Assembly: GCA_037447655.1 (NCBI GenBank)
Contig: JBBHKE010002364.1
Coordinates: 48,774-112,773 of the forward strand
Length of the DNA: 64,000 nt
From: Zygnema cylindricum
Taxonomy: Eukaryota > Streptophyta > Zygnematophyceae > Zygnematales > Zygnemataceae
Direction: 5' to 3'
A program made the position numbers and the translations under genes. Shown in pieces: positions 28,580 through 57,513 of the stretch (positions within the stretch are counted from its first letter, which is position 1; the number at the start of each line of letters is the position of its first letter). Below the pieces are notes generated by a model, which worked only from the letters and a program-made list of their open reading frames with translations, made no database searches and was not told where the DNA came from.

Positions 28580-28588
28580 TAGACTCTG

Positions 28589-34160: not shown

Positions 34161-34259
34161 TCCCCCCTCTTAGTCCTCGGGACTAAAAAAAGTAATATTT
34201 TACCAGCCCAATTCGCAATTCCCACAGAACTAGAGGGCAAAGGGTTGAGGACGAGAGTC

Positions 34260-35310: not shown

Positions 35311-35558
35311 CCCCTCTTAGTCAATCGTGATTAAGAATTAAATTGTTATCCGCTCAATTTGCAGCTCCTGCAGAACCAGGTGATTGAGGGTTGATGGCGT
35401 GGCTCCCAAGAGGAGGGAAGACAGGAAGGATGCCAACACTGGCTGCAGTGATTGCTTACCAAAACGTGGCCAAGCTGGGAGGACAGATCACAGGATGAGG
35501 AGCAAGAAGGACGGTCCGCAAAATAAGTCAGGTGGAAAGTGGGTTCGTCCTCCAGTCC

Positions 35559-36670
35559 TCAAAGATAGCTAGGGGCAACATTGATTTGGTTCTCTTTAAT
35601 TTTGCGGCCATCTTTCCCCTCCAAAGTAAGAACCCCCTTGCAAGAAACTTCCACCACTTTTAATATTACCCGACCGGTACAAATATCTAACGTGTCATTC
35701 TTTTGTTGCATCCTGTATACAAAGTCCCCGGGCATAAATCGTCGCTGTCTGGGCACATAATTTCCACTCCGTCGTTGGGAATACCACAACTGATCTCGGT
35801 GTTGAGCCGACTGTAAATTTCCTATGGCATGAGGTATCTCTCGGTGGAACACTTTAGCTCTTTTAGAGATCAGTTTTTCGACAGTTCTGTGGTCATCCAT
35901 TTCCGTAGAACCACCGCTTGGGCCGAGGCAGCTCCGGGGAGGATGGGATGTCGTCCAAATAGGATGAAGTAAGGGCTGTAGGAGTGGAGGGAAGCTTGTC
36001 GCCTGAACCTGTATCCCATGGCAATCCCAGGAACCCTTCGGTCCCACTCCCCCAGATCTTCTTCGACTGCATATTTTTGCAGTGACCGCTTCACTGTTTG
36101 GACGCACCTTTCGGCCAATCCGTCGGCCTGTGGGTGGTCCTGACTGGTTAGCTGGTGGTCAATGAGCCATTTCTCCAAGAGGGTGGAAGATTCTATTGCA
36201 AATTCAGAGCCTTGGTCGGTCGAAACCTCCGCGGGCCCTCCGAATTTAGACAACACTCTCTGCAAAAAGGCATCTGCAATGGACTTTGATTCCTTTAGTG
36301 GCAAAACCACCACTTCTATCCATATGAAAAAATGTTCGATCATGACAAGCACGAAGCGATTGCCCCGTCGGCTGGCCGGAAGAGGCCCCAAAATATCCAG
36401 AGATCATCGATAAAACATTCCCCGGATGGGCAAAGAATGCAGCTCGGTTCCGCCCTTTTTGTCGAAAGCTGCTTTTACCCGGTCGCAGAAAGAACAAACC
36501 TGTACAATTTGGTTGACTTGAGCCCGCAACCCATGCCACCAATAGGATCCCATGACCAGAGAAGTGGTCCGTTTTCGCCCGAAATGTCCACATACTGATA
36601 GAGACGGGTAATCAGAGTTTCTCGATCGGCGGGGGGAGGAACCACTTTCCTCGTCCCGTCCGCCCATTTT
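35559..36670 (-). pseudogene. G1 integrase
   Basis: Minus strand: zinc-binding part near 36500-36600 (GSYWWHGL, QVCSFCDRVKA), then DDE core: SLDILGPLP in a shifted frame, FVLVMIEHFFIWIEVVVLP, VSTDQGSEF (second Asp) and HPQADGLAERCVQTVKRSL (Glu). A C-terminal domain ends GDFVYRMQQKNDTLDICTG. It would insert the cDNA. At least three frameshifts. Core residues are retained where visible. A partial duplicate follows at 34260-35168. Confidence 0.9.
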
Positions 36671-36799
36671 CGGAGGAGAATACCTATGTCCGTGTCATAC
36701 GCCACCATACGGGTTTGAACTCGGGACAATTGAAGTCCAGGCAAGTGTGGAAGAGGAGATCCCCGCTGTATGGATTGCAGGGAATCGTGGTCATTCCAA

Positions 36800-37399
36800 A
36801 TATCCTTCCGCCCGGCTCCTATGGGTGCCTGTCCCTCAACGTCGGCTGAAAATGTGGACAGTTCCCCCCCAAATTGCAGAAGCCAAATAAAAGCGGAGGA
36901 GGCCTCGATGAATCCCAAACTGATCTCCGGATCCTCATCGTGTCTTGCCCCGGTAGAATCAAATGTGGAGGGGTAGGGGTTTCTGTTAAGTCCGTCGGCA
37001 TTCCCATTGATTTCTCCTGCCCGGTGGATAATATTGAAATCGTATTCATGCAAGATAAGAATCCATCTGGCGAGTTTGCCGGTTAATTTGATATTTTCTA
37101 TGATCCATTTCAGAGGCTGATGGTCCGTAATTAAAGTGAAATGGATCATGTATAAATATGGCCGAAAATGCTGAATCGCCCAACCTGCAGCAAGGAGCTC
37201 CTCGTAGTAACTGCTGTAATTTCTTGTTGGCTCGGTAATTGCTCTGACTAGCGTAAGCCGCTACATACTCTGCTCTGGCATCATCCACCTGAGCCAAAAC
37301 GGCCCCCAATCCAAACTTGCTCCAATAAGTGTAAAGGAGGAAAGGTCTTTGGTGATCGGGCATTCGGAGCACGGGGTGCTGCTTGAGTGCGTCCTTCAA
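36800..37399 (-). pseudogene. G1 RNase H domain
   Basis: Minus strand: MPDHQRPFLLYTYWSKFGLG, AVLAQVDD, YASQSN, then FTLITDHQPLKWIIEN, GKLARWILILHEYDF and RAGEINGNADGLNRNP. This is the RNase H of Ty3/gypsy RT, between RT and integrase. The first catalytic Asp (usually 'TDAS') is replaced by Tyr (YTYWSKFG). Frameshifted near 37200. Confidence 0.88.
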
Positions 37400-37479
37400 A
37401 AATTGGAAAGCGATCTGCTCTGTGGCCTACTTCCATTCTTGGTCTTTCCGCAACAACTTGTTCCGAGGTTGGGCGTGAC

Positions 37480-38361
37480 TACTGAACTCGGGAATGAACC
37501 TCGAATAATAATTAGCCAGGCCAAGAAAGGTGCGTAGAGCTGATATATCTTGAGGTGGGTGAAGAGCGTCTAGAGCGGCCACCTTGACCATAGAGCGGCC
37601 ACCTTGACCATATAGGGACCCACTGTTTTGGGGGTTACTTCATGTCCAAGGTAAATAATTTTCTGAACAACGAAAATACCTTTACCAGGGTGGCATTTCA
37701 AACCCGCTACTTGAACTGCCCGGAGGACAATCCGGATATGCTTCAAGTGTTATTCAAAGTCTTGGAGAAAATTATTACATCATCAATATAGCACTGGACA
37801 CAATCAATTCCTTGGAGGGCTTCGTCCATCGCCCTTTGGAAATTTGCCGGCGCACTCTTCAACCCGAAGGGCATGTATATCCACTCGTATAACCGGAAAC
37901 CTGCCCAAAATGCCGTTCTTTCCCGGTGCTTTGGTTCCGTGGCAATTTGGTGAAACCCGTTTTTCATATCAATGGTGGAGTAGATGGTGGCCCCCGAAAG
38001 AGAGCCAAAAGCCTCTTCCGGGGTGGGCATCGGATACTGGTCCGGAATAGTGGTCGTGTTGAGCATGCGGTAATCCCCACACATCCGAAAATCTATTGTT
38101 TTCCCTGAGGCATCCTTCTTTAGAGGGAGAACGGTTGGGGAAGCGAACCTATGGAGTCTGGTGCTTTCCTGAACCAACCCAGCTTCCACAAGGTCTGAAA
38201 TATGGCGGTGATAAACTATTTTTCCTTAAAATTGAGGGGATATTGCTTTTGCCAAACAGTTGGTGTCTCATCTATCAGGTCAATTCAGAAAAGAATTCTT
38301 TTGTTAATGTCGAAATCTGTTTCTGACCAGGAGAATCCCTGTTTGTTTCTTGCTAACAACT
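37480..38361 (-). pseudogene. G1 reverse transcriptase, C-terminal to copia B
   Basis: Best part at 37743-38189: FASPTVLPLKKDASG, RMCGDYRMLNTTTIPDQYPM, STIDMKNGFHQIATEP, YMPFGLKSAPANFQRAMDEA and CYIDDVIIFSK, with the YxDD box intact. A frameshift follows, then the thumb region to about 37480. A 20-bp tandem repeat (AGAGCGGCCACCTTGACCAT) lies at about 37574-37612. The N-terminal linker is on the other side of copia B (44571-44925). Confidence 0.92.
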
Positions 38362-39264
38362 TGTTGAAAAGAAATAATTAATATTCACTTCTTAATTTAG
38401 ACTCAAGAGTGAAGAGAGAGAGAGAGAGTCACCATGGCTGCCGCCATAGTCAGAAAGAAATAGACACACAGGCAGACAAAATAATAGATTGCCAAAATAT
38501 TGCCCTACACCAGATTTGAACTTAGGTCTACCAAATACTACATAGACGTATGCCTCAACCATTATGGCGTGTACAAAACGATATACGTAATTAGTTCGGT
38601 ATGTATTTAAAGTGTTACGAAAAACGTCACTTTCATGAAAACACACCAAAATTCACGAAACAACATCAATAGTCAAACGGCGCTGGCGGACGTAAATCTA
38701 ACCGTGAAAATTACATGATCGGACGGACGTCATCGCCCCCGCCAAACCCGAAGGAATCTTTGGCGGCTTTCAAACATAGCGGCGCGCTGTGCCACGTGGC
38801 GCAACATCATTGGATGACGGGAAGAATGGGAGGAGGAACGACATTTCCCATGTTGACAAGTGTTGACCAGAAGGCCATGTTGTACAATGGCCTTACAAGA
38901 AGTACAATTGGCCACTGTACCTTCTTGTAGTATACACTCTTTTGATTGGCTTGGGGTAGAGTAGGACGTAGTTATGAGTAGGATTTAAGGGACTTAGCGT
39001 GTTTGAGGCGCCTCTCTCCAGGTGACCTTTTGTAATTTTAGGCCATCTTTGGCCAGCCATAACTTACTGCTCAGAGGAGCAAATTCAGTGATTCTTTTTG
39101 CGTTTGACTCAAGGGAGTCTTCTCCTCACAGGGTTGAGGGTGGTCAGAATATTTGTGTGCCTGGGCGGCACTTATTCAATGGGAAAGTGAAAGGGTCAAA
39201 TATTATCGTAGAGGCTTTACATAGGCTGTTCATTTTGTGGGTCAATGGAGACCACAAAATTTCA
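38362..39264 (+). repeat. Copia B 5' LTR (903 bp)
   Basis: Starts TGTTGAAAAGAAATAA, ends CACAAAATTTCA directly before the PBS. A possible TATA-type promoter could not be fixed. GAGGCGCCTCTC at about 39006 is conserved in all family LTRs here. Confidence 0.94.
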
Positions 39265-40222
39265 GGTTATGGGCCCACCCTCTAAGGTACCGATATTTAA
39301 TGGATAAGACTTTATTTATTGGGAAAATGGGGCATAGTGTCCGGGCAAATTCGATGCCCACCTCCACTTGGGTTTGGAGGAACACGTTTTTTTAGCACCT
39401 CCGTCACAACAGCTGTTAAAACATTAGCCACCATCTCGAATGATGACGAGGAAGGGGAGGAAATAATCATGGAAGGAGAAAAGGGAGAAGGTGCTTCGCG
39501 AGGGACTCCACTGTTAAGGACGATAATGGCAGCAGCACCACCAACAATGGTGGGAGGGAGTCAGACTGAACGGTCAGAATATAAAAATTGGAACTATAAA
39601 GATAAGGTGGCTAAGCTCTTAATTCTCAAAAGTGTAGTGAAGGGTATTCCCATTCCCTTTATGCATGTTAGATCTTCCTCTTAGATTTGGGTATCTCTAG
39701 TGAACAAATATAAGAGTGGGTCATTGCAGCAGCAACAACTGGCAAAAAATAATATTTCAGCTTATAGTTACAAGGAAGGAAGTATGAATGATTATTGCAA
39801 TGATTTAAGAGCATTATTTGGAAAACTAGAGAGCGCAGGTAACTCATGGTCTGAGAGACAAAGAGTAAATACACTGATAATGAAACTACTTGAAGAGTAT
39901 GAGAATATCATTAATCGGTTGCAGGATCTAGGTGATAGCAATTGGAATTGGGATAGTACAATGGGGATGATTTTAGTGAATGAGAGTACCATAAAACTCA
40001 GGAGAGGAAGTCCGAGTGTTCAAGCATTGGCTGCAGGATCTGATTGGCAGAAGCATGATGAAGAAAAAGGAAAGGATCGCTATTAAAACTTTGGAGGAAA
40101 AAGACAAGGAGGTGGCAGATTTGATCGACAAGGGAGAGGAGCTCCTCGAGGTGGATTATGTCACTTCTGCTATAAACCGGAACATTATATGGCAGATTGT
40201 GTCAAGCTTGCAGATCTTTGAC
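39246..40222 (+). pseudogene. Copia B gag
   Basis: The frame can start at ATG 39246 in the LTR (METTKFQ) and crosses the PBS as VMGPPSKVPIFNG, followed by an in-frame TAA. Later frames give a capsid-like region (about 39570-40080: MNDYCNDLRALFGKLESAG, LEEYENIINRLQDLG) and the zinc knuckle CHFCYKPEHYMADC (40159-40200). Gag packages the element RNA in cytoplasmic particles. At least three stops or frameshifts. The same V-M/T-G-P-P-S start is seen in copia A and C. Confidence 0.85.
39265..39277 (+). promoter_or_regulatory. Copia B PBS, half-tRNA (initiator Met) type
   Basis: GGTTATGGGCCCA directly follows the LTR and is the exact complement of the anticodon-loop segment of initiator tRNA-Met (UGGGCCCAUAACC). 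The ATG inside it is in frame with gag. Confidence 0.9.
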
Positions 40223-40299
40223 TAAAAGATGGACAAGGTTCTTCAAGAGATGGAGGAAAGAAAAAGGCTTTTCTGACTCAAGTTCACGATGAGGAAGAA

Positions 40300-41700
40300 G
40301 ATGAAGTAACCGAACCGGAAGAGGAGCTTGAGGAGCTTCTTCTCAAACCTAAAATCACTGAGAAGTATGCAAACATTCCACGGAGACAAAAGTGTGCTTT
40401 CGGAGGTAAGAGGTATCCACCTGAGGATGGGTGGATCATAGACTCAGGGGCCTCAATGCATATGTGCAAGGATAAGAGGTGGTTTATTAAATTAAGAAAA
40501 ATTCCAACGGTTGAGATAAAGTATGGAGATGGTAGAGTAGAAACCACAGGTGTTGTTGGATCGGCTGATTTAAAAGTTCTAGTTGATGAAAAGGCTTCAA
40601 TTGTAACACTCTCAGATGTTCTTTACATTCCACAGCTTAGCAAGAATCTAGTCTCTTCAGCTGTTCTAGATGAAAAAGAGTTCGAAACAGCACTAAGAAA
40701 GGAATCTTCACAGCTAGCTTTGATAATGAGGTTTATTTCATAGCTGAAAAGGGTAGTCAAGGAATGTTCAGAATTGTAATTTGCAATGAAAAGGGTGTTC
40801 TCTACTCGTGTGGAAGTGATATGATGCTTTGGCACAAGAGGTTGGGGCATGTGAATCTAGATAGATTAAAGAAAATGAAGAAAAAGGGAATAGTGGATGG
40901 AATTAAGTTTGGAGATGATGAGACCTCAGAGGATTGTAGTGGATGTGCCCAAGGGAAGATACATAGACTCCCATTTCCAAAGGCATCCACTTTTAGAAGA
41001 GAGAAAGTATTAGATCTAGTTCACACTGATGTTTGGGGACCAGCTAGGTATGCTTCACATGGGGGGAAAAGATGGATGCTAACCATTACAGATGATTGGT
41101 CCAGATACACTAAGGTATATTTTCTTAGACATAAGTCAGAGGTACTAAGATGTTTCAAAGAATACAAATTATGGAGTAAAAAATTACATGAAACCTCAAT
41201 AAAAGAGATAAAAAGTGATAATGGGAAAGAATACACCTCAAAGGAATTTAAAGAGTTTCATAAAGAAGAAGGAATCCATCATGAGAAAATTGTTCCTTAT
41301 AATCCGGAACAAAATGGAGTAGTAGAAAGAGTGAATAGAACTTTAGGAGATATGTCCAGAAGTATGTTACCTGATAAAAGAATAGGATTGCGGTTTTGGG
41401 CTGAGTCTAGGAACTATGCTAATTTCATAAAAAATAGAGTGCTAACTTCGGCAAATAAGGAGGAAACTCCGTATGAAAGATGGACGGGAAGAAAACCAGA
41501 TTTGTCTTGTTTGAGAGTGTTCGGAAGTCAAGTCTACAGTTTGGATTCCTATAAGACTAAATGGAAGTTTGAGGGAAGAGGGAAACCAAGATATCTTGTA
41601 GGATATGATGAGAGCACAAAAGGATATCGAGTGTATGACTTAAAAAAGAGAGATATCATTATGGTAAAACACATAGTGGTGATGAATGAAGTAAAGTCTA
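40300..41700 (+). pseudogene. Copia B protease and integrase
   Basis: Protease active site WIIDSGASMHMCKDK (about 40432-40476). Frameshift near 40740. The long ORF 40764-42200 continues with the zinc-binding region (LWHKRLGHVNLDRL, CSGCAQGK) and the integrase core: LVHTDVWGP, IKSDNGKEYTSKEF, NPEQNGVVERVNRT, so D-D-E are all present. It ends with RPDLSCLRVFGS-like C-terminal sequence (about 41490-41530). It would insert copia cDNA. The acidic Glu/Lys-rich stretch at 41770-41930 is the usual variable linker before RT. Confidence 0.92.
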
Positions 41701-42049
41701 TTGATCTATTCAAATGTAACAAAGAAGCCAAAATCAGATTTGAATCGGGTCAGTATTCTAACTTTGACTTGGGAAATGAAGAGAAGGAAGACGGGGAGAA
41801 GGAAAAATCTGCGGATGTGCCAAAGGAGAAGGACGAAAAGACAACATCCGAGGTAACACCACAATACGAAGTGGAAATTGACGAGGAACTTGATCAAACA
41901 CGGGAATTAGAAGATAGGGGAGATGAAAATCTTCCTAAACGAAACCCGAGGATGCCTTCCATTCCGGCTTCAGATTTTGAAGGAGGAAAAAGTAGTAAAC
42001 TGCTTCAAGAAAGACATGTAAATAAGAAACTCACAAAGATGTCTCACCC

Positions 42050-43650
42050 AGAAAAACCTCAAACATACTTAGAGGCCATAAATACTCCAGAAAGCAGCCG
42101 GTGGATCACTGCCATCAATGAAGAAATGACCTCTATCGTGGAATCCAATACATGGGAGTTGGTAGATTGTCCACCGGACAGAAAACTGATTGGATGTTAG
42201 TGGGTTTTTAAGCTTAAACTAAACCCAGATAATACCATTGAAAGGTATAAAGCTAGGTTGGTTGCTAAAGGTTATACTCAGAAAGAAGGAATAGACTATG
42301 AAGAAACCTTTGCACCCATAGTCAAATTCCCTTCTGTCAGAATCCTCTTAAGTTTAGCCGCAGCAGAGGATATGGAAATACACCAGATGGATATTAAGAC
42401 CGCCTTCTTACACAGAGAGTTGGAAGAAGAAATCTGCATGAGGCAACCGAAAGGATTCGTGAAAAGTGGAGAAGAAAGCAAGGTGTGCAAACTGATAAAA
42501 TCACTTTATGGCCTTAAGCAAGCCCCGCGACAATGGAACATAAAATTGGACGAATTTCTGACAGGTATGAGATACATTAGAATAAGTTCAGATCACTCCA
42601 TATACATATTTGAGGATGAAAATGGAGTGATATTTAATGCTATTTATGTTGATGATTTCTTAGTCTTAAGCAAGTCGTTAGATAAAATTAACAAACTCAA
42701 ACAGGATCTGTGAAGTCGGTTTGACATGAAAGATCTCGGCGAAGCAAAATAAATTTTGGGGATTCAAATGGAGATGGATAGAGGGAATAGAATTATAAGA
42801 CTCACTCAGTAAGAAACTATCGGTAATATGCTAGAAACGTTTCAGATGGAGAAAGCAAATGGGTGTACCACTCCATGGATCTAAAGAAAGTATCGGAGGG
42901 GAGTGAAGAGGGAGGAATATTGATTTTAAATGATAAAATAGATGAGGAACAAAAGAGGTTTATGGAAGGAATTCCTTATAGGCAAATTGTAGGCAGTTTA
43001 ATTTACTTTATGAATTGTACACGTCCTGACATACCTGCGGCTGTAGGCATTCTCAGTAGAAGTCTAAATGAGCCTAGGAAAAGAGACTGGGAAGCAACGA
43101 TATTTGGTGGGAACAAGAGAATTATGGTTGCATTTGGGAGGGGAGCACACTGACATCACCACTTGGAGTGATGCCAGTTATGGGGATGTGCCTTTGAGAC
43201 GATGTACAACTGGATATGTGTTACAAATTGGACCTGGTGCATGCTGTTGGAGTAGTAAACAACAGAAAGTAGTTGCTCAGTCCACTATAGAGGCTGAATA
43301 TATGGCTTCATGTGTTGCCACTAAAGAATTAATGTGGGTAAAATCTCTACTCGAAGAACTTGGGTAAAATCTCTACTCGAAGAACTTGGGTTCATGAAAT
43401 CTGGGACTCAGAATGTCTTTTGTGATAATTAAGTTGCTATCTCTATCGCAGCTAATCCAAAACACTATTTCAAAGCTAAACATATGGATATAAGACTAAG
43501 CTTTGTCAGAGAGAAGGTTGAGATTATAATATTTAAATTGGTTCATAAAAGTGATAAAAAGATGATTGCAGACATGATGACAAAACCGGTACCTTCTCCT
43601 AAGTTAAAATTTTGCAAAGAAAATTGTGGACTTAAATTAAAAGTTGACTA
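42050..43650 (+). pseudogene. Copia B reverse transcriptase and RNase H
   Basis: RT: PETYLEA-like start near 42060, TAG stop at 42198-42200 just before WVFKLKLNPDN, then GIDYEETFAPIVKFPSVR, HQMDIKTAFLHRELEEE, YGLKQAPRQWN and NAIYVDDFLVLSKS (YVDD intact). Stops at 42711-42713 and 42749-42751. RNase H: YRQIVGSLIYFMNCTRPDI, TTWSDASYGDVPLRR, STIEAEYMASC (catalytic Asp and Glu kept). A 26-bp tandem duplication (GGTAAAATCTCTACTCGAAG..) lies at about 43336-43389. Inactive. Confidence 0.92.
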
Positions 43651-43652
43651 AG

Positions 43653-43664
43653 AATTAAGGGGAG
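43653..43664 (+). promoter_or_regulatory. Copia B polypurine tract
   Basis: AATTAAGGGGAG abuts the 3' LTR start TGTTGAAAAG. Confidence 0.85.
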
Positions 43665-44565
43665 TGTTGAAAAGAAGTAACTAATTTTCACTTTCTAATT
43701 TAGAATCTAGAGTGAAGAGAGAGAGAGAGTCACCATGGCTGCCGCCAGAGTCAGAAAGAAACAGGCAGACATGTATAGACAAATAATAAATTGCCAAAAT
43801 ATTGCCCTACACCAGATTTGAACTTAAATCTACGAAATACTACATAGACGTATGCCTGAACCATTATGGCGTGTACGAAATGATATACGTACTTAGTTCG
43901 GTATGTATTTAAAGTGTTACGAAAAACGTCACTTTCATTAAAAGACACCAAAATTCACGAAACAACATCTGTAGTCAAAAGGCGCTCGCGGACGCAAATC
44001 TAAGCGTGAAAAATACATGATCGGACGGACGTCATCGCCCCCGCCAAACCCGAAGGAATCTTTGGCGGCTTTCGAACATAGCGGCGCGCAGTGCCACGTG
44101 GCGCAACATCATTGGACGCCAGAAAGAATGGGATGAGGAACGACAGCTCCCATGTTGACATGTATCAACCAGAAGGCTATGTTGTACAATGGCCTTACAA
44201 GAAGTACAATCGGCCACTGTACCTTCTTCTACTATACACTCTTTTGATTGGCCTAGGGTAGAGTAGGACGTAGTTGTGTGTAGGAGTTAAGGGACTTAGC
44301 GTGTTTGAGGCGCCTCTCTCAGGTGACCTTTTGTAATTATAGGCCATCTTTGGCCTGCCATAACTTACTGCTCAAAGGAGCAAATTCAGTGATTCTTTTT
44401 GCGTTTGACTCAAGGGAGTCTTCTCCTCACAAGGGTGAGGATGGTCAGAATATTTGTGTGCCTGGGCGGCACTTATTCAGTGGGAAAGTGAAAGGGTCAA
44501 ATATTATCCTAGAGGCTTTACATAGGCTGTTCATTCTGTGGGTCAATGAAGATCACAAAATTTCA
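43665..44565 (+). repeat. Copia B 3' LTR (901 bp)
   Basis: Starts TGTTGAAAAGAAGTAA, ends GATCACAAAATTTCA, and is followed by the TSD CAACT. Confidence 0.94.
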
Positions 44566-44570
44566 CAACT

Positions 44571-44925
44571 GCGATAGCTGAGCCTTTTGTTGAGGATCTA
44601 ACTGCTCCCCCAAGGTCGAATCCATTTTCCTTGGCTCCACCGCTGCCCATGCTTCCGGGGGTCTTCCCAATCTAGTAATATCAAATTCAGATCCTACGTG
44701 TGGGTCTACTTTTTCCCTTCCGGCTAGGATCGTACTGTTGACAACTTCCACTAAGTTGTTCCCTTCTAAGCAGCTGCACCCCCACACAGGAGGGACCCTC
44801 AGAGAGGAGATTTGAATTTTTTTTCTCTCTCTCCCCCTCTCAAGCTGCAAAGTTATTTGAATTGCCAACAATTTAGGAGCTTGAAGGTAACTATTTTGCT
44901 TCTCTGGAGAGTGGAGACTGGAAAA
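44571..44925 (-). pseudogene. G1 linker between DNMT and RT
   Basis: Minus strand: after motif X of the DNMT the frame continues as a hydrophilic linker (SEFDITRLGRPPEAWA, LDPQQKAQLSQL) that leads into RT. G2 has the same linker uninterrupted (about 54600-54960). Copia B inserted at its end. Confidence 0.7.
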
Positions 44926-46037
44926 GGCAAGAGCATGTTTGATAACCCATGTGATTGCGTTCAAATCCATGCTCTGTCCGGATTAGGCTGCACCTTTGGG
45001 GTTTCGAAATACCTGGTGCAGCTGTAGTTTTTGTATAGAATCCCATGGCTTGCTCCCTTTCTGCAATGGTTGGGGTTGTCCATTTTCCTGCGGTATTGTC
45101 AAAGATCACTTCGGCTGCCCCTTTCCGATACACGTGGCTGTTCGGGAAGGAGACCAAGGTTGGAAGAGCTCTGCATGGAAATCCTGGTTTGTTGCATTTG
45201 AAGAAGGGAGAATGGTCAATTTTTGTCACGGGGGTGGCCATTCGCCCCTTTTCTATAATTTGTTGTACACTATTGTTGGGGTCCACAATATGCCTGTCCA
45301 AGAGCTGCATGAGGATGGGGAGTTGGATCAAATAGGTCTATTAAGTCCTTACTCGGTGGGCGCGCGATTCCATCTGTGCCGCATCGAAAACCAGCGGGAT
45401 TCCTATAAATCTGGATGACTTGCTACCAACTATCCGCCACATGTTGTCGTCGATCATCCCCCGGGTGGACATTCTCCAAAACATACCCCACTGGTGTGTC
45501 TTGGAGCTGTTGTATCCATGATATTACTTGTATCATCTGAAAGAAGGTCTTGCTTCTCCTGTGTGCATGTCCTTTTCTTTGTCATGATAGGGAGTATCCC
45601 TGACAAGGCCATCCTGCTACCACCAAATCTACTCTTCCCAAACTGGCTTAGTGTGGGGTCATGATATTTTCCACATTCTGAGGTAGGCTTCGGTGAGCTT
45701 GGGAGATTGCCGACACTAGGAGCAGTTGAGGATATAATTGGTGAAGTTGGTGCAGGCGATGCTTGTTGACGTCTCGGGCTTCGGGTGATATTTCCACAAC
45801 CGTATAAGCCTCCACTATGTATCATGCCTTCAAAACCGCTTCCAAATCAGTGTTGATTCCCGAAAATAATGATACAATCCGGAGTCTGGAATCTGGAATT
45901 GTTACTGACACCACCTGTCGGTTGAGCTTCCCATCTTGGGACAAGATCTCCGAAGATTCTGACCGAAGAGTTGAAAATGTCTTATTTGGTGATATAGATG
46001 TAAAAGCTTGTTCCACTCCCCGCCGAAGTGCTATCAT
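44926..46037 (-). pseudogene. G1 cytosine-5 DNA methyltransferase domain (DNMT3-like)
   Basis: Minus strand, in order: motif I RIVSLFSGI (45855-45881; AdoMet binding), a motif II-like VVEISPEARDV, motif IV VDLVVAGWPCQGYS with the catalytic Cys (PCQ codons 45600-45608), motif VI VGYVLENV (45468-45476), motif VIII FDAAQMESRAHRVRT (about 45345-45390), motif IX PTIAEREQAMGF (about 45038-45073) and motif X GQSMDLNAITWV-like at 44935-44980. Motif VIII (AHRxR) and the spacing favour a DNMT3-type over a DNMT1-type domain. It sits between protease and RT, so it would be made as part of Pol and could methylate cytosines. Stops at 45822, 45648, 45582 and 45423 plus two frameshifts make this copy non-functional. 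Confidence 0.88.
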
Positions 46038-46091
46038 CTGAAATAATCGGACTTGGTATCCCTCTTCCCACCGCTTAGAAATAAGGAATTG

Positions 46092-46865
46092 CTATATCTC
46101 GTCAGCAATATCCGGTGAGCTGGCAAAAAGATCCGCCGGAGAGGATGTGGCATATACGGGGTAACATCCAGACACAAGAGCATTTATCTTTCTCCAATTC
46201 CATAAACCCAAGGGAACCACCACCTGGGTCCCTTCGGGCTCCTTGGGGTCCCTCACCATGAATTGCTTCTTCCACATACTCAACTCTATATTAAGTCAGG
46301 TCCAAGTTGCCATCCCCAGCAGAATCTCGAAGTGCTTCCCTCCCACCACTAGGAATGGGAGCTGGATTTGGACTCGTTGACCCGCATCATCTGAGAATTC
46401 AATTTCCATAGCTTTGATGATCCTATAAATCAGTTGACTTCTGCTGCTAACTGTACTCAGGAAAATGTCGCTTGGTATGATTTCTGGCCGTTTTTCCTTG
46501 GAGATCTGTTGTAAAGCAGAAGTTGTAACTAAATTTGGAATCGCACTGGTATCGACCACTACAATGTGATAGCCCCCGTATCCGTTGAGCTTGAAATTTC
46601 TGGTCCGGTTGAAGATGAAAGCCACCGATAAGGCCTTGTAATCCTTATCTATCATAGGGGTGCAGGGATCGGCTGACAAAAAGACAAAACTGGGTCGATT
46701 TGCCAGCTCTACTTTCTCCTGTCCCAAGTGGATTTCCTCTCCTAATGCCTGAATAAGGATATCTTCTGGCAAATTGTGGGATGAGGCCAAAGTTTTGACA
46801 TGTGTGAGGGCGTAGGCCATCAGGTGCCTGACTAACATAGCAGCTGGTTTAGAGGAAAGAGGCAC
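46092..46865 (-). pseudogene. G1 aspartic protease region
   Basis: Minus strand: HIVVVDTSAIPNLVTTSALQ (DTSA in place of DTGA/DSGA), a long middle, then QLPFLVVGGKHFEILLGMATW, the hydrophobic-Leu-Gly pattern that closes retropepsins. It would cleave Gag-Pol. It is preceded by KALSVAFIFNRT and followed by a linker (46092-46283) before the DNMT. The ORF is nearly complete, with a stop after TWT. Confidence 0.7.
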
Positions 46866-49015
46866 AGCATTAGGCGGTGAAATAGGGGTACTTCGCTCCT
46901 CCGGTTTCTCCTCCTCTCCCCCCTTGCTTCCTCCTCTTCGCCATCTGAACCTGGTGTGGGAGGTGTCGCTGGTGTATCATCCTCCGGGCATTCTGCCATA
47001 TGCCGTTCGAACCAGTCTTGGGTTTTCTGCTTTTCTTCCTCTTTAGCCAATTTTCTGTCTCCGTTTGTTTGTTGGTCTTGTTTTCTCGAATCCGGGCGGC
47101 AATTTCTTTTCAGCAAGTGGAGGTGGGTTTTTAGGTTTTATTCCTAGACTGGTGTTGTTATTCAGTATTACTGCCCGGGGAGTGAATGACAATGGTTCCG
47201 TTATCTTTCTGTTATGGTCTCCTGAGGCCAGTCCTTGTCTGTCCCTCCTTTGCTCCGATGTGCTGTTGCGAAGTGGTCTGCGATTATCCTTGACTCCCAC
47301 ATTCCAGGCTCGTGATTGAAAAGTTCGGGCATGGTTAACTCTTGGAGGCGTCATATCCCATCCGATAATGTCGTCATCATCCCCAGCCGCCGTGGATTCT
47401 TGCTCAAGGTCCGCTAGCTTTTGTAATAGCTCTTGTTTTCTTCGTTGGAGTTTCTGAGCCGCCGTCAGAGCAGGAGGTCGGGAGGGAGACCTTAAACGTA
47501 ATGTGGCTAATTCTAAAGCCATCGCGGCCAGTTGTTGGCTTTGATGCTGAATTATATCTTTCGGTTTAAATAGTGCTCGATCTACTGGCGTTTGTTTGGG
47601 TTTCTCCATTGTGCGTAGTCCTCAAGGGTAAAGGAGCTGAAGAGGGAGAGGATTTACGGGAGCTTCCCCTTCATCGGTAAATAAGGGGTACTACATCATC
47701 TCCTTTGGCACCCCATTCTTTTGGAAACACTGCCCCTTTTTGTGTCCGATGAAACCGCAAGCCTTACATTTGGAGCCCTCGGTAGTGTATTTGCTCCGTA
47801 ATTCATTAGAAATTTTGGCGTCATCAAATTTTGGAAGTTTTATTAGTCTCAATTGAGCTTGAGACGATTTGGACGTTTCGGCCCGGGGAGTTAGGCAGTA
47901 ATTGTCCTTTGTTACTGGTGTTTTGTCCTCAGATCCCCTTCCTTGTTTCATTTCGTGTTGCTTCTGGGTTCTTTCAGCCCTTTCTTTTTCCCATTCGTTT
48001 TGTTTCAGAGCGAGTTCCGGTTTGAGTTTCCGGGGGCAACGTTTCCACCCGTTGTCGTTTTGCTGAGAGTTCAGGCAATTATACAGAATCATTCTGTCAT
48101 CCGCCCCCATTGCGGGTTCTGATCCGCCATCAACTGCTTGTTTTCCTATAAGCTTCCACAAAGCTTGAAGTTCCTCTTGTTCCTCATTGCTTAATGAGGT
48201 TTCTCCGGCAAACCCGGCGAAGTTAGCTTTGGCTTTGCCGGTAACAGCTTTCTCCCTAGCCTCGCTGTGGACGAAATGATCTTACTGTTTCATGGCCACC
48301 AATGAGATTTTTTTTGCTGTGGGATTAATGTCCTAGATTGCCTGTCCGGCAATCCAATTATCCAGAGCCGTTTGCCTGTAGGTCCAAACGAGTTTTGAAC
48401 AACGATAAAATATTTTGTTGCCATTTCCTGTTAGTCAATTGTTGACAGTTTGGTTTTTTGGCAAAGACTGAAGAGCCTATTGAAAAGGGTCTGAGGCGTC
48501 TCATTCTTCAAGCATCGGAAGTCCGTGAATTCCTTGATGTCGGACTCATTCCTCTCAGTATACAGAAGTCTCCAGGCGTCAAGGAGAGTGGTGCAAGAAG
48601 TGGGGTTAGCGATCATTCGAGTGGCAACTCGGGCTGCCTGAATAGCTTGCAGCTGGTTAACGTAGGCTCAACCTTGGGCATGCAGCTTCATGTCCTCGGT
48701 AAAGGCAAGAGAGACAGGAGCGGCTGCCGCTGCAGCCAAGTCGGCTTCCGCATGTATAACCGCGGCATCGAGAGTCGGGTCGGAGATTTTGATGCTGAGA
48801 GCCATCAGGAGAGGTTGCCGCTCCTTGTAATCCGCCAGAGCACCCCTTGAGAGATAGCTGACCATCATAGAGAAAAGTGTTGTCTCGAAGTCATCCGGAA
48901 TGGCCCTTCGCCGATATTTGTTGATTTCAGACTGAGTGAAGGATTTCCACAACAGTTCGAAATCGGAGAAGGAGATCCCGAAATTATCCCCTGTAAATAT
49001 TCGGTTTTCCTCCAT
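46832..49015 (-). pseudogene. G1 gag with zinc knuckle and coiled-coil region
   Basis: Minus strand: capsid-like part 49015-48431 (FSDFELLWKSFTQSEINKYR; then ETPQTLFNRLFSLCQ, typical of Retrotrans_gag), a basic/charged stretch, and zinc knuckle CKACGFIGHKKGQC (47727-47768). A Gln/Leu/Lys-rich segment with heptad-like pattern follows (about 47400-47600: QKLQRRKQELLQKLADLEQE), probably a coiled coil, then a Glu-rich segment before protease. Several frameshifts. Confidence 0.78.
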
Positions 49016-51239
49016 CTCTTTCTCCTCCTCCGCAAGGTTAGTGAATTGAGGAGAGTGAGGCCGAGTGGGATTGAAAAACTACGCCCGTGAAATAACCCCT
49101 TGATCTCCGCCTTCGGAGCCGGTATCGCCTACTACTCCGACAAAAGTAGCAGCTTGTTAAATGGCCACTCTCACCCCCACTGAGGAAGTGCTTGGTGTTG
49201 AAAAGATGGTTGGGGGGTAAATGTCTCCCACAGGTAATTCCTCTGTCCCCCGAGGTGCGGAAGGTCTCTGCGATCGCCGACTTATCCTTTTTGGTGGGAT
49301 TTGAAGATCCGGTCTGTTTGGAGGAGTTCCCTTGGATGTGGAAGAAGAAGCGGATGGCGAAAGACTTTGCTTGGGATACAGGGTTTGCCCCCTAGTAGTG
49401 CGTCCGGAAAGAGGAGAAGGGAGTGGTTCAGAACTGGAAGATTGAGAACGCCGGTGAGGTGGAGAATAGGCGGGGATGGAGGTTTTTGGTCGCGCAGAAG
49501 TGGCAAGTGATTCAACTACCAACCCGGGGGGCCCTGTGGAATATCTTTGGGATCTGCTGCAGGTCCCGGTGCTGGAGAGGAAATAAGAGGAGGAGGAGTG
49601 GATGTAGGATCAAGATTTGGTCCGGAGGGTGGCTTAGGAGGAGTAGCTTGTCTCAAAGGGATGTGGATCCTTTCGTTTGGTCGTAATTTCACCAAAGTCT
49701 CCACGGCGGAGGAGATCTCCATATAGAAAGGTAGGATGCTCCCAAGATATAGAAGCCAACTCAGAAGGTAGATCTGCACCCAAACCCTTTTCATTAGGTC
49801 CTGTTGTTCCTTCCCCTCATTGCTGAAGGGGAAGTTCCTGTCGATTCCCAGATGGAGTCTTCTTAGGGTGAGACTTGGGAACTTGTGCAGCTTCCCTTGT
49901 TGGCTCCTAGATATTAGGATGAAGTATTGGAGAAGTAAAGACCTGCTCCCTAAGAAGTCTACTTGACCTAAGCCAGGTGTCCCGTATCAGTCGCAGTTCT
50001 TGTTCCTATACTTTGCTCTTTTTCTCCTCTTAGCCTCCCAATATATTTCGACACATCCGGCCCCCGTCGTAGCCCCACCTTGAGATCTCAACTTTTTTAC
50101 CAATTCTTGAGCACTGCTTAAAACCACAGTTAGATCTCCCACCTCTAAACCTGGCGTCTTGGGATATGTAGGTTCGGGTCGCCATAGCTCCTCGGAAGGG
50201 CGCACTGTGGGATCCTTGGGAAAGGATCTCCCTTGGTCTACACCTGGAACCTCGGAATCGGTTGGTTCGGATTGCCGAAGCCCCAAAGGAGGTGAACCTT
50301 TTTGGGCTGCTGAGGGAGGACCTCCAGTCCAGGTTGGAGCGGGTGCTGGGAATGTATCCTCCTTGGAAATAGGAGCGAATCTACCTTTACTATCACGGTG
50401 GTCGAACCGCTTTCCCTTCCAAGGATCTGGAAAGTCTTTCTTGCTGCACCCCTCTTCAAGACGAGATCGAGAGATGGTACGTCCTCTGGCCTGCTGGTAG
50501 ATGTATCCTGAAAGAAAGATTGCCGAGGGCAAAATTTTGGGGCTCTCCAAGGTAGACTCTGTTCCGACGGTGATGAGCTACTTTCATAGGAATTGCTCAG
50601 AATTTCCACCACTCCTCCGACGGGTCTAACCACCCTAGTTCAATCGGCCAGGCCACTCTTTAAACCTACTCATTTTTCACCCTCAGCTCATGGAGATCAT
50701 GCAGAGCAAGTAGTTCCTTATGACCAAGACGATGGGGATCGGCTAACACCGCAGGGTCTATTGAAATCTCAGCCCTGGGAATCTTGGATCGGGCATGGAA
50801 TCCAACCTCCGGCGGATGCCGAAGGACTGGCTCCCTATGGGCCAACTGCTTTTGTTGGGAAGTGGGAGACATTTTCCTTTTCTCTTCGGCTTGGGCCCGG
50901 GCCGCTTCGGCTAGAGAAGGGAAGTGTTTGGGGGTGAGGAGGGGAGGCGTCGGAGGAACGTTTTCCTCGGCCTGTCCTTTGGGTGGAGATTCAAACATGG
51001 GAGCTCCTTGCATTGCTTCCTCGGGCCTGGGAGAGCCCCCCCCGGGGGCAGACCTCTCTTGCCTACCTCTCTCCTCAGGCGTAAGACTGGGGGTTCCCCT
51101 ATCCTAAACCTCTCCTCCTCCCATTGGATGGTAACAACTAGAAAGAGAAAGTAATATAAAATGAGAAAATCTAACTCCCTTCCACTAAGAGAGATTCCTG
51201 AGTCAAAGCTCCTATCTCCTCTTATCCGAGTAGACAAGG
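49016..51239 (-). other. G1 leader and possible N-terminal gag extension
   Basis: Several overlapping minus-strand ORFs (50666-51013, 49987-50550, 49157-49522) are Pro/Ser/Arg-rich without a recognisable domain. The segment AEEKRKMSPTSQQKQLAH suggests coding. They may be the decayed N-terminal part of gag or an additional ORF specific to this long element. No PBS could be placed with confidence after the LTR. Confidence 0.4.
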
Positions 51240-52430
51240 TGCACTTTTCAGTACTTTGCTGATCCACTAGAAGTCTAACAATTGTATCCTCAAAACCCAC
51301 TGTTTTAGTACTAAAGATGCGAAGAATCGGTTCCAGAAGGGACACAACGAAATCCAAAGAGAACTACCGGAGGAGGACAAATGAACTTCCACGCGAAAAT
51401 AATAAAAATAGAAAGGATTGGCTGTTTCAAATTTAAAAATATCACCTTGCCCCCGAAAATGGAATAAAAGATGGAATTAAAAATTATGGCAAAGCAAGCT
51501 CAACATATCCTAGAAAGCTAAGATGACACCAATGGAAGACGAAATATCTCTCGGTGGCACCGAATACCGGTACGATTCTCCTTCACCACTCGGTTTTCGC
51601 AGATCGGAACCAACTGGACTCTTCTCGGTTTCAATAGCAAAAAGTGAAGATCGCCCAAAAGGATTGATAATGCCAACTACCCGCCCAAACTACGATCTCT
51701 AAACAAGACAAATCCAAACCAAGATGGCAGAAGAGTCAAGCAATCAAGCACAACAAAGATTCTCCAAAAGAAGGTTTGTTTGGAATTTCTTTTGAGGTTT
51801 TTCACAAGAGACAGTAATGAAAAGCAACCTGTCTCCTTCGACCCCAAGTGCCTTATACAACCAAGTTTGTCCACTTCCGGTCGGAAGAGTCAAAGCAATT
51901 CAAGGAACTAATCAACGGGAAGCAAATGCTATCGAACTGACAAAAGACAAATTAAGTTGTACTACACTTAGGGCAAAAAGTTGTGCTTCCAGTCACGGCT
52001 AGATTTCCGGCTGAAAGTCAAAGTTTGTTCCACTTCAATAAGACAAAGTACTGAAAATGACGCATGAACGCCGGATTTTGTCCTGATCTAATTAATGGAC
52101 AAAAAGTCAATTGGACCTGAACTAAATTCGTACTGACATAAGTAACCCATATATAAATGACTATCTGAAGAGTTACGTTGCGTTCCACAACGTGCCCCCC
52201 AAAAGAACAAGCGGCAAATGGTACATGTGAAAATAAAATCTTTGAAGCGGAAGCAGCACCGGCCTCTGTTAGGCATAAAATAAAGTGTGTTCCGTTCAGT
52301 TTAGAAATCCATGATCTTGTTTGGTTTGGTGTACCTGCGCCGTCCGTGATGTCCGTCTGGTGAAAGTGTCAGAAGATCTTGGGTAAATAAAGGTGTGCCG
52401 AAAATGCATACGTGCTTGACACAATTCCAA
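51240..52430 (-). repeat. G-family LTR shared by G2 (3') and G1 (5')
   Basis: It matches G1's left LTR along its length (GACAGGTTGCTTTTCATTAC; GTTAGACTTCT end near 51260). To its right the G2 integrase stops and LTR U3-side sequence (GCATTTTCGGCACACC) begins at about 52430. To its left G1's leader follows. So a single LTR serves both copies. Its U3 head is missing. Confidence 0.72.
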
Positions 52431-52998
52431 CAAGTTTGAGAATTCTCTTGCAAATTCGGAGCCTTGGGTGGTCAAAACTTCGGTTGGTGCCTTAAAATTG
52501 GGACAACACTCTCTGCAAGAATGCGTCTCCATTTGCCTTGGACTCCTTCTGGGGTAAGACCACTAATTTTATCCACTTGGAAAAATGCTCTATCATTACC
52601 AATACAAAGCGGTTCTCTCGTCTGCTTTTGGGGAGAGGGCTTAACAGATCCAAAGACGACCGATAAAACATTCCCCGGATGGGGTGGGAATGAAGTTGAG
52701 TACCTCTTTTTTTGTCAAAGTTTGCTTTGACTCGGTCACATGAACAACACGTCTGGACAATCCGGTTGACTTGGGTCTGCAACCTGTGCCACCAGTACGA
52801 TCCTGTGACCAGGGAAGTGGTCCGTTTCTGCCCAAAATAGCCACATTGCTGGTGGAGGCAAAAAATAAGAGTCTCTCGGTCGGCCGAGGGAGGAACCACT
52901 TTCCTCGTCCCGTCTGACCACTTCTGGATTAAGATGCCTCTTTCCCACTCGTACGCCGCCATTTGGGTTTGAACACGGGATAGCTGAACTCTAGACAA
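52431..52998 (-). pseudogene. G2 integrase (C-terminus deleted)
   Basis: Minus strand: zinc-binding part (QQCGYFGQKRT, GSYWWHRL, CCSCDRVKA), SLDLLSPLP with first Asp, NRFVLVMIEHFSKWIKLVVL, then, frameshifted, APTEVLTTQGSEFAREFSN. The second Asp position reads TTQGSEF instead of STDQGSEF. It ends abruptly at about 52430 where LTR sequence begins. Confidence 0.88.
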
Positions 52999-53028
52999 AT
53001 GGGGAAGAGGAGAACCTTGTTGGATAGA

Positions 53029-53562
53029 CTAAAGTGCCTTGGGGTCATTCCAAATGTCTTTACGCCCAGCCCCTATTTGCGCCTGCCCCTCCACGTCTGC
53101 AGAGAAAGATGACAATTCCCCCCCAAATTGAGGAAGCCAAATAAAAGCAGAGAAGGCTCGAATGAGTTCCAAACTGATTTCAGGATCCTCATCGTGACGG
53201 GCTCCAGTAGAATCTTTGGTGGAAGGGTAAAGCTTTTTGCTAAGTCTATCGACGTTCACATGGATTTCCTCGGCCCGGTGGAATATGTCAAAATCATATT
53301 CCTGCAATATTGACACCCATCTGGCAAGCTTGCAAGTCATCTTACTGTTCTCCATAATCCACTTAAGAGGTTAGTGATCCGTAAGCAGAGTGAAATGAAC
53401 CCCATACAGATATGGTCTGAAATGTTGGATCACCCAGACAGATGCGAGTAATTCCCCATGATAGCTGCTGTAATTCCCCTCCGCTTGGTTGTTACTTCTA
53501 CTAGCGTAAGCCACCACATATTCGGCCCCCGCATCATCCAGTTGAGCCAAAACAACTGCCAA
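53029..53562 (-). pseudogene. G2 RNase H
   Basis: Minus strand: AVVLAQLDDAGAEYVVAYAS, GNYSSYHGELLA, HFTLLTDH, then a stop (ACTAA complement near 53370) and KLARWVSILQEYDFDIFHRA. RNase H of a Ty3/gypsy Pol; frameshifted. Confidence 0.86.
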
Positions 53563-53570
53563 TCGAAACC

Positions 53571-54420
53571 TGCTCCAATCAGTGTAAAAGAGGAAGGCCT
53601 TGATGATTGGGCATCCGGAGCACTAGGTGTTGCTTCAGTGAATCCTTTAAAAAAAGGAATGAAATTTGTTGTTCCTCCGCCCACTACCACTCTTGGTTCT
53701 TCCGCAATAACTGGTTCAAAGGCTGAACGTGACTGCTAAACTCGGGGATGAACCTCCGATAGTAGTTAACTAGGCCTAAAAACGTGCAGAGTGCAGAGAA
53801 GTCCTGAGGAGGGGGAAGGGCATCAAGGGCTGCCACTTTGATTACATGGGGACCCACTGTCCCGGGAGTAACTTCATGTCCTAGGTAAATAATTTTCTGC
53901 TCCCCAAAAATTCCCTTACCTGGGTGACATTTCAAGCCCGCTGCTTGGAGGGCCCGGAGGACAATCAGGATATGCTCCAAGTGTTCCTCAAAGATTTTTG
54001 AAAAGATAATGTCATCGTCGATATAGCACCGTGCACAGTCGATTCCCCGGAGCACCTCGTCCATGGCTCGTTGGAATTTGGCAGGTGCATTATTTAGCAC
54101 GAATGGCATGTAGAGCCATTCATACAACCTGGACCCTGCCCAAAACGCTGTTATTTCCCGGTGCTTTGGCACCATTGCGATTTGGTGGAACCCATTTTTC
54201 ATGTCTAAGGTGGAATAAATAGAGGCCCTCGCCAGCGAGTCGAAAATCTCTTCCGGTGTTGGCATTAGGTATCGCTCAGGTACGATTGCTGTGTTGAGCA
54301 TCAGGTAGTCCCCACACATCCGAAAGTCTAGTGTGAGTCCTTTTTGGGTGGGAGAACGGTTGGGGACGCAAACCCATGGAGTCCGGTACTTTCTTGCACC
54401 AATCTTGCTTCCACCAAGGT
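53571..54420 (-). pseudogene. G2 reverse transcriptase
   Basis: Minus strand ORF 53684-54319: MCGDYLMLNTAIVPERYLMP, STLDMKNGFHQIAMVP, YMPFVLNNAPAKFQRAMDE, CYIDDDIIFSK (YIDD kept, next residue Asp instead of Val), then GLKCHPGKGIF and LGLVNYYRRFIPEFSSHVQ. This is the longest intact RT stretch of the G family here. The N-terminal part continues, frameshifted, to about 54420. Confidence 0.92.
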
Positions 54421-54967
54421 TTGTACCTTAGCCAAAAATGAACTCTTTCTCCTTGAAGCTGAGTGGATACTGCTTCTGCAAAACAGTCCCCGTCTCGTCT
54501 ATCAAATCGATCCGAAGAGGGGTCCCTTTGTAGATGCCAACGTCAGTGTCTGACCACGAGAACACCTGTTTGTTCTCCTCCAACAGGTTGGAGAGCTAGG
54601 CCTACTGTTGAGGGTCTAACTGCTCCCCTAAGGTCCAATCCATCTTCCCAGGTTCCACGGGTGCCCATGCTTCTGGGGGTCTACCCTAGCGTGAGATGTC
54701 AAATTCCAACCCTACTTGTGGGTCTACTTCCCCTCCTCCTGTTAGAATGTTGTTGCTAACAACTTCCGCTAAGCTGCCCCCTTCCGAGCCCCTGCTCCCC
54801 CCCCACTGAGGAATCCCTTGATTTGGGTGAAATACTGGGACTGTAAATTTTTGATGATAAAACCTGTCTCCTTGCCTCCCTCCCCCCCTCAAGCTGCAAG
54901 TTGGCCTGTATTCTTAACAACTTTGGAGCTTGAAGGTAGCTAGCCCTTGACTGAGGAGACAGTAGGC

Positions 54968-55331
54968 TAGAAAAGGGAAGAGAATGTTTTAAAACCCATG
55001 TGATTGCATTTAGATCCATGCTCTGTCCGAGTAGGCTGCACCTTTATAGGTTTGAAATACCTGGTGCTGTCGTGGTTGCAGGTTGGAATCCCATTGCTTG
55101 TTTTCGTTCTTCCACCGTCGGTGATGTCCAAACTCCAATCTTGCTGTCGAATATCATTCCTGCCACTCCTTTCCAATACGCATGGCTGTTGGGAAAGGAA
55201 ACCAAGTTTGAAAAGGCTCGTCGTGGTGCCCCTGGTTTGTTGCACGAAAAGAACAGAGGACGCTCAACCTTTGTCACTGGAGTGGCCATCCGCCCTGTCA
55301 AGCTCATGTGCTTCACAGGCACCCCTTTCAT
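54968..55331 (-). pseudogene. G2 DNA methyltransferase C-terminus (motifs IX-X)
   Basis: Minus strand: GRMATPVTKVERPLFF, NLVSFPNSHAYWKG, motif IX PTVEERKQAMGF, TTTAPGIS and, after one in-frame TAA, motif X RCSLLGQSMDLNAITWV. Motif X is in frame here, unlike in G1. It matches the DNMT3 pattern (ERVFGF...; RQRLLGRSW...). The catalytic half would lie upstream but is replaced by the inverted LTR. Its presence in two copies shows that the domain belongs to the family. Confidence 0.85.
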
Positions 55332-56493
55332 CTTACCAAGGATTCCCGGGCCTTTTTCCTCTGTACGGTCATTAAAGTACGGGGAAAGGAGCGCACTCAG
55401 CCGGACCAGATTCTTCTATTTTCCTAACTGAACGGAACGCACTTTATTTCGCGCCTAACGGAGGCCGGACGACAAAGTTACTCCGTTCCAAAGATTACCA
55501 TCCTGTTACATGTGACCAGTTGCCAACTGTCCCGTTGGGGGCTACATTGTGGAACGCCACGTAACTTTTGGGATAGTCTTGTAGATTTTGCTGTTGGCTA
55601 TCAGTAGGACGTTAGTTCAGGTCCACCAGCCTGGTAGAGCATTTATTAATTTGAGTCAAAGTTAGGCGTTTCACGTGAATTTAGAACTTTGTTGCCCAGG
55701 ATTCTGTTATAGAAAAACCACGTGGCTTCTAATCTAGACGGAGATAGTCGCCTAACTTTTTGCCCTGAGTGTAGTACAACATGTTTTGTCTTATGTCCAT
55801 AGGATAATAATTCCTGGCCGGTGATTGGCCCCTGGTATTGCTTTGACTTTGGTACTATCGATAGGACAAACTTTGTTTGTATAAGGCACTTGGGGCCGAG
55901 GGAGACAGGTTGCTGTTTCAGTACTGTCTCCTGAGAAAAACCCTCGAAATTCCAGCAAACTTTCTTGTGGAGAACTTTTGTTTTGCTTGTGATTGTGACC
56001 TTATTGCCATCTTGGTTTGCATCCGTCCTTTGTGGAAATCGTAGTCCGGTTGGGTGGTTGGCACCATCTTTCCTGTTTTGGGCGGTTTGGGGACTAGTGT
56101 TTGTTGGAAACCAAGAAGGGTCTTGCCGGTTCCGGGTCGCGGAAACCGAGGAGTTAAGGAGGACTTACCTGTTCCGAGGTTTTCAGGGGGATATTTCGTC
56201 TCCTTTTGGTTGTCCACGTTACGTTTTGGGGGTAGGATGAGCTCGCTTGCTATTATTCCACATTCTAACTTTATATCTCTATTCTTTTCTAAGGGCAAAG
56301 TGATATTGTTAATTCTGAGACAGCATTTTCATATTTATATCCTTTCATTTTTCTGAGTAGCAGCATCTGAATTCTCTCTTTGGTAGTCCTTCTTGGGGCC
56401 CTGGTTGGGTTTCTTCCGGGGTCGATTACCAGAATCTTTTGTACCAGAATAGCGGATTTTGAGAGGATTTTTGTTAGGCTTCCAACAGATAGT
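55310..56493 (+). repeat. G-family LTR, inverted relative to G1 and G2
   Basis: On the + strand it follows the same order as the minus-strand G LTRs: CACAGGCACCCC, CCGGACC, GCCTAACGGAGGCC, GGGGCCGAGGGAGACAGG, GGGTCTTGCCGGTTCCGGG, ending TTAGGCTTCCAACA. It marks an inversion or a separate insertion that truncates G2. Confidence 0.78.
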
Positions 56494-56765: not shown

Positions 56766-56779
56766 TCCCTTCATCCATA

Positions 56780-57495: not shown

Positions 57496-57513
57496 GTGTG
57501 CTTTACCTTAAAA

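Follow-up and report, generated by a model that had tools for sequence, protein, structure and literature searches.

Introduction

The closest known counterpart of the element treated here is KnitGypsy-Dnmt3 of Klebsormidium nitens, in which a DNA methyltransferase (DNMT) domain of the Dnmt3 type lies in a Gypsy Pol (de Mendoza et al. 2018, PMC5890265). A figure legend of that paper describes the repeats of this element as arranged as in DIRS and its domains as those of Gypsy. The same paper reports SymbioDIRS-Dnmt3 from dinoflagellates, whose domain methylates CG in yeast, and names Iyer et al. 2011 among two previous accounts linking a DNMT to reverse transcriptase (RT). The streptophyte and dinoflagellate cases are restated in PMC12344493, and PMC6338049 describes such transposons as absent from land plants; PMC10538959 cites the 2018 paper among its references. 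A DNMT3 domain in a gypsy Pol with DIRS-like repeats is already in print for Klebsormidium (PMC5890265). Here we describe G1, a dead element in a 64,000-nucleotide stretch of the Zygnema cylindricum genome (GenBank assembly GCA_037447655.1, contig JBBHKE010002364.1; hereafter the window). Our additions to the published record are young copies in this genome and a PHD finger.

We favor, with moderate confidence, a reading that makes G1 a dead copy from a Ty3/gypsy-type family with the Gag-Pol order Gag, protease, DNMT3-type methyltransferase, RT, RNase H, DDE integrase, and PHD finger, and in which the family works as proposed below. It would work like the streptophyte element originally published as KnitGypsy-Dnmt3, with which it probably groups. 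Both have a Dnmt3-type domain in a Gypsy Pol open reading frame (ORF), lack introns, keep the key residues, are under purifying selection, and carry DIRS-like repeats (PMC5890265). Set beside the published description of KnitGypsy-Dnmt3, the present family shows very young copies, a PHD finger ending Pol, a 4-bp target-site duplication (TSD), and TGTC...GACA ends. SymbioDIRS-Dnmt3 also combines a Dnmt3 in Pol with A-coding-B-A-B repeats, but it has a tyrosine recombinase and a DIRS RT, whereas this family has a DDE integrase and a gypsy-type RT (PMC5890265). None of the 84 database relatives used below (P0001 and so on) is a protein named as K. nitens.

The methyltransferase relic of G1 and its place in Pol

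The features of G1 are as follows (LTR, long terminal repeat; K2P, Kimura two-parameter distance).

35020..52421, minus strand: G1 in full; ends TGTC...GACA, TSD ATTG (4 bp); sits in the integrase of its sister element G2
51350..52421, minus strand: A1, 5' terminal repeat; alignable only in part
47115..48281, minus strand: C-terminal part of Gag; CCHC knuckle by eye; matches P0001 residues 203-464 weakly (identity 25%, E=7e-10)
46300..46620 (limits approximate), minus strand: aspartic protease relic; VDTSA by eye; in the frame of DNMT motifs I-VI and inside the 29%-identity stretch shared with P0001
44896..45947, minus strand: DNMT3-type C5 methyltransferase relic; frame changes near 45406 and 44980; several stops
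38362..44565, plus strand: copia element between DNMT and RT; TSD CAACT (5 bp), LTR K2P 0.074
37591..38361, minus strand: RT; RVT_1 E=5e-19 on 37746-38225; main stretch 56-67% identical to P0001/P0003
37226..37609, minus strand: RNase H region; 63% identity to P0003
35906..37221, minus strand: linker, zinc-binding domain, and DDE integrase core; rve E=9.5e-8, barely above cut-off; 55-72% identity to P0003
35352..35513, minus strand: PHD-finger relic, C-terminal end of Pol; family profile E=2e-6
35020..35318, minus strand: poly-G polypurine tract and B repeat, 3' end; without A2-B2

The order protease, RT, RNase H, DDE integrase is that of Ty3/gypsy elements. The Gag and protease pieces gave no Pfam knuckle or protease match, respectively.

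The original prediction, made from the DNA sequence alone, held that cytosine-5 methyltransferase motifs lie in canonical order on the minus strand between protease and RT, and this was borne out. Motifs I-VI occupy 45947-45396, motifs VIII and IX 45406-44981, and motif X 44979-44896, each group in its own frame; the motif names (I to X) are those we take these stretches to represent. When stops were read as X, the Pfam methyltransferase profile PF00145 matched the first of these frames (E=1.1e-8, 35.3 bits; cut-off, 22), as the predicted profile check would have it. A whole-genome search with the same profile recovered the window copy above cut-off at 45465-45647 on the minus strand (34.1 bits, E=3.1e-6; place C1783:94238-94420). 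With the database relative P0001 as query, tblastn scored 133 bits against the G1 DNMT; of 500 dinucleotide shuffles, 463 gave some match, the best reaching 28.5 bits. The region 44880-46150 was matched by 82 of the 84 relatives. The predicted range, 44926..46037, overlaps the relic; the matching stretch starts 30 bases lower and ends about 90 bases short of the predicted end. Its stops and frameshifts agree with the prediction that this copy is dead.

P0001 (1,458 amino acids) aligns with G1 in a single stretch and one frame, at 29% identity, running from Gag through protease into DNMT (47315-45396, with 8 stops inside). Once the copia element is removed and the empty site reconstructed, the frame reads continuously from the DNMT linker into RT. 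On this single Gag-protease-DNMT stretch, the same order in relatives, and the empty site, the DNMT is part of the G1 Pol, where the prediction had placed it.

Regarding enzyme class, the element domain is nearer to DNMT3 than to DRM, DNMT1/CMT, DNMT2, or bacterial enzymes, in line with the predicted DNMT3-like class, although in the DNMT tree the DNMT3A reference sits on a long, unsure branch. Its motif order is not rearranged, unlike that of DRM; assignment to the DRM or CMT class was rejected. The catalytic Cys, Glu, and Arg are conserved in 79, 80, and 80 of 80 aligned domains. The PCN catalytic loop of DNMT3 is absent: the residue after the Cys is Q in 74 of the 80, E in four, and I and L in one each, whereas DNMT3A has N there. 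Plant DNMT3 (Yaari et al. 2019, PMC6453930) is of the same enzyme class, with unrearranged motifs, but is a host gene with a DUF3444 domain, whereas the element DNMT lies within Pol.

Copies in the host genome, selection, and age

The host assembly (352.8 Mb) contains at least 123 places matching PF00145 (123 scored of 782 first-look candidates). We fetched 30 of these loci, each about 3.3 to 3.5 kb. The element DNMT was matched by 29; the remaining one, L007, reads by eye as an exon of a host chromomethylase-type gene. Protease was visible in 26 and RT in 23, and wherever both were visible the order was protease-DNMT-RT. The original prediction anticipated intact relatives elsewhere in the genome, and 14 of the 30 loci do carry a DNMT uninterrupted over at least 290 codons.

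Among host copies, the ratio of nonsynonymous to synonymous substitution (dN/dS) of the DNMT had a median of 0.23 (0.11-0.35) in 22 pairs, those of 91 with dS between 0.05 and 1.5. Between G1 and G2 it was 0.34 (0.19-0.59) for the C-terminal part of the DNMT, 0.15 for RT, and 0.11 for integrase; for RNase H it was not computable, as dS was saturated. Judged by the ratios among host copies, the DNMT is under purifying selection there.

Very young copies are present in the host genome: terminal-repeat identity was 100%, 99.6%, and 97.8% in three copies and 99.5% in a fourth. The family has probably been active recently. Such copies let one ask directly why a parasite carries the parasite-silencing enzyme.

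Database relatives and the history of the domain

P0001 and one weak prokaryote-like match were found first, and a second search brought the total to 84 proteins (E<=0.001; 7,988 scored candidates). RT, RNase H, or integrase domains are present in 65 of them by precomputed Pfam annotation. No relatives were found in viral_contigs or prokaryote genomes, and P0084 resembles a bacterial methylase rather than an element protein. Organism names are attached to proteins of Marchantia polymorpha (P0019, P0024), Closterium (P0056, P0058), and Haematococcus (P0085, a short, weak match). P0024 shows DNMT and, by eye, a protease-like stretch; neither Marchantia protein has an RT in the same protein. According to the original prediction, such elements had been reported only from a few lineages (dinoflagellates and charophyte algae); this fits the literature in print, while the database relatives range wider. 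The Marchantia proteins point against the absence of such transposons from land plants. A literature search that left most subscription-journal papers outside its reach found no report of DNMT-bearing gypsy elements from land plants.

The DNMT takes two positions among the relatives, either between protease and RT, as in G1, or between RNase H and integrase (layout B, assigned by position to the 46 rows outside two layout-A lists). The proteins P0025-P0075 are mostly of layout B, often with a PHD finger, and P0050 represents 196 member sequences. Layout B forms a single clade in the DNMT tree (SH-aLRT approximate likelihood-ratio support, 100) and in the RT tree (96). The DNMT alignment comprised 80 of the 84 domains; the DNMT tree comprised 79, with P0077, P0078, P0081, P0084, and P0085 excluded, and the RT tree comprised 55 of 84 RTs. 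G1, G2, and P0003 form one group in the RT tree (support, 100). Across 53 elements, DNMT and RT distances were concordant (Mantel r 0.82; 0 of 2,000 permutations). This agreement of the two histories points to an old acquisition of the DNMT, passed down together with Pol, and it contradicts the original suggestion that G1 itself captured the gene.

The PHD finger

The PHD finger, the split repeats, and the nesting of G1 in a sister element go beyond the original prediction. A C4HC3 PHD finger is recognized in relatives by PF00628 (E=6e-11 in P0012, 3e-11 in P0050). When all six frames of the window were searched with a family PHD profile, only two matches appeared, the relics of G1 (E=2e-6) and of G2. 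In the literature search described above we found no published PHD finger in a DNMT-bearing element.

Chromoviruses, the chromodomain-bearing Ty3/gypsy elements, likewise have a chromatin-reader domain after integrase in a gypsy Pol; in the present family a PHD finger replaces the chromodomain, and the DNMT and the split repeats are additional. By analogy with these chromodomains, the PHD finger may select or hold chromatin and so guide or anchor integration.

Split terminal repeats

Five of 10 host copies examined have the plan A1-coding-B1-A2-B2, with outer ends TGTC and GACA. In all five, a G-rich polypurine tract immediately precedes B1, and three have a 4-bp TSD (TTGG, AAGG, and CCCT). 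Of the other five, one (C1407) has B1/B2 only, and four lack the plan (one has a 70% A-like pair, one weak 69-74% repeats); for 4 of the 10 copies only guessed end zones were fetched, of which one showed the full plan and three did not. G1 retains A1 and one B; G2 retains B1, parts of A2, and B2, with B1 and B2 86% alike.

A short TSD and TG...CA ends, as in Ty3/gypsy elements, were found in G1 and in three of the five full copies. The same full LTR was not found at both ends; in the five full copies the left end is A only and the right end B-A-B. Because its ends differ, we file the element by its Pol as gypsy-type and not as an ordinary LTR element. Seven database relatives were scanned for the tyrosine recombinase PF00589 at E<=0.01; none had it, and all seven had rve. 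With a DDE integrase and no tyrosine recombinase in these relatives, membership in DIRS was rejected. Split repeats, a DDE integrase, and a 4-bp TSD together pose the puzzle of how the integrase meets the element ends.

A proposed mechanism and its rivals

The DNMT would be translated within the polyprotein and packaged with it. Since it adjoins RT in Pol, it would be in the particle during cDNA synthesis. The simplest use of a methylase there would be to methylate the freshly made cDNA at CG sites, either before integration or during it, and the copy would then arrive in the genome already marked. The authors of PMC5890265 propose cDNA methylation for their DIRS elements.

As for the ends, the polypurine tract precedes B, so that the RT product would be expected to begin at B. 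Integrated copies start with A and end with B, so the integrated A-coding-B-A-B form would be a circular permutation of that product. The simplest route would be a cDNA circle cut at the B|A junction. A circle with two B-A units would yield A-coding-B-A-B, and one with a single unit A-coding-B, as in G1; alternatively, G1 may have lost its other repeats by recombination between B1 and B2. More broadly, and only tentatively, one ancient green-lineage gypsy family may have retained both a DNMT3 methylase and a PHD reader, moved the methylase once within Pol (between the protease-RT and RNase H-integrase places), and used a DDE integrase on circular, permuted, premethylated cDNA in a process that is still running.

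Several observations weigh against the proposal. PF00145 found no match in uninterrupted short pieces of the G1 DNMT region, in the second G1 DNMT frame, or in the second relic, that of G2. The 14 uninterrupted copies and the 22 dN/dS pairs are not all independent, as identical figures for L008/L009 and for L019/L020 may reflect duplicate or allelic contigs. The PHD relics of G1 and G2 are degenerate, that of G1 falling under the Pfam cut-off (PF00628, E=0.0017). Two of the five full-plan copies have no TSD, the full plan was not seen in half of the copies examined, and G1 itself ends in B alone. The DNMT tree was a quick one with references on long branches, and the next kin of layout B in the RT tree (P0023, P0029) stand elsewhere in it; 8 of the 46 layout-B rows lack a visible RT. 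In P0004-P0011, P0014-P0021, P0024, and P0026, the protein that carries the DNMT shows neither RT nor integrase, so packaging with RT cannot be generalized to all relatives. Finally, the Klebsormidium gypsy DNMT was inactive in yeast, a test that its authors call inconclusive, as human DNMT3B failed too (PMC5890265).

Among the rival explanations, the one that survives best is that the DNMT acts in trans, silencing competing elements or the sisters of its own element and so limiting harm to the host, instead of marking its own cDNA. Purifying selection says only that the activity is kept, and slowed retrotransposition is an option listed by the authors of PMC5890265. In proteins that also show RT, however, the DNMT lies inside Pol in both layouts, which would tie it to the particle, and we regard action in trans as a minority possibility.

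Ordinary LTR copies could also have given rise to the split repeats, by recombining or by inserting into one another, with no permuted circle. The single B at the 3' end of G1 and the five copies without the full plan would fit this. Against it, five copies agree in A-coding-B-A-B and in their ends and have similar polypurine tracts, three of them with TSDs, and the same repeat plan is reported in Klebsormidium (PMC5890265); we consider this origin unlikely. Less probable still is a role in which the DNMT would serve to bind nucleic acid or as a scaffold for Pol, its catalysis unused. The yeast result described above would agree with such a role, but the near-complete retention of the catalytic Cys, Glu, and Arg argues otherwise.

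A host DNMT pseudogene lying in the element by chance, the case named at the outset as refuting the prediction, is rejected despite the stops and frameshifts of the relic, given the one in-frame stretch from Gag through protease to DNMT, the DNMT end at the same place in sister G2, the 65 relatives with RT, RNase H, or integrase, the 29 of 30 host loci that match the element family, and the same layout in independent copies.

Sister element G2 and other features

G1 is nested in the integrase of G2: matches to P0003 reach residue 1218 on one side and resume from 1218 on the other. The remaining features are as follows.

52422..55337, minus strand: G2, first half; C-terminal part of the DNMT, then RT, RNase H, and the start of integrase
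26802..35019, minus strand: G2, second half; end of integrase, PHD relic at 34206-34364, polypurine tract, B1 at 33871-34160, A2 (interrupted by a copia element), and B2 at 26802-27092, which ends in GACA
27828..33394, minus strand: copia element within A2 of G2; TSD probably TTCTA, ORF of 1,199 amino acids at 29206-32805, LTR stretch 98% identical over 398 nucleotides

The second, shorter DNMT relic, that of G2 (54879-55337, minus strand), covers what follows motif VIII, including motifs IX and X. Beside the broken start of this DNMT, an A-type terminal repeat of the G1/G2 family lies at 55296-56318 on the plus strand. The copia element in A2 had no close named relative among 42 database matches; the best named were from the angiosperms Trifolium (37% identity) and Rhodiola (34%), and some named matches exceeded 37% over a short part only.

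Elsewhere in the window, a separate gypsy-like element at 926-5466 (plus strand), fungal-like by eye, has RVT_1, RNase H, and an H2C2 zinc domain, and a frame at 15794-16219 (minus strand) encodes a Myb/SANT-like domain (PF13837, E=3.6e-8). More copia fragments, on both strands, were recognized by eye at 56716-58029 and 60085-61675. Rfam gave no match at gathering scores within the 64-kb window.

The host genome also contains antenna genes. One is of the Lhcb3 type (417 bits to 5xnl_3, 416 to 7oui_2, and 377 to the next single-domain class), a classification read from the highest single-domain rows; by summed score the first place went to 9vfj_2, an LHCI protein of two domains. In 5xnl, chain 3 is presumably Lhcb3. 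Another is of the Lhcb6 type (313 bits to CP24, 182 to the next). Lhcb genes stand in tandem arrays at L034, L035, L038, and L040 and on contigs C519 and C2590.
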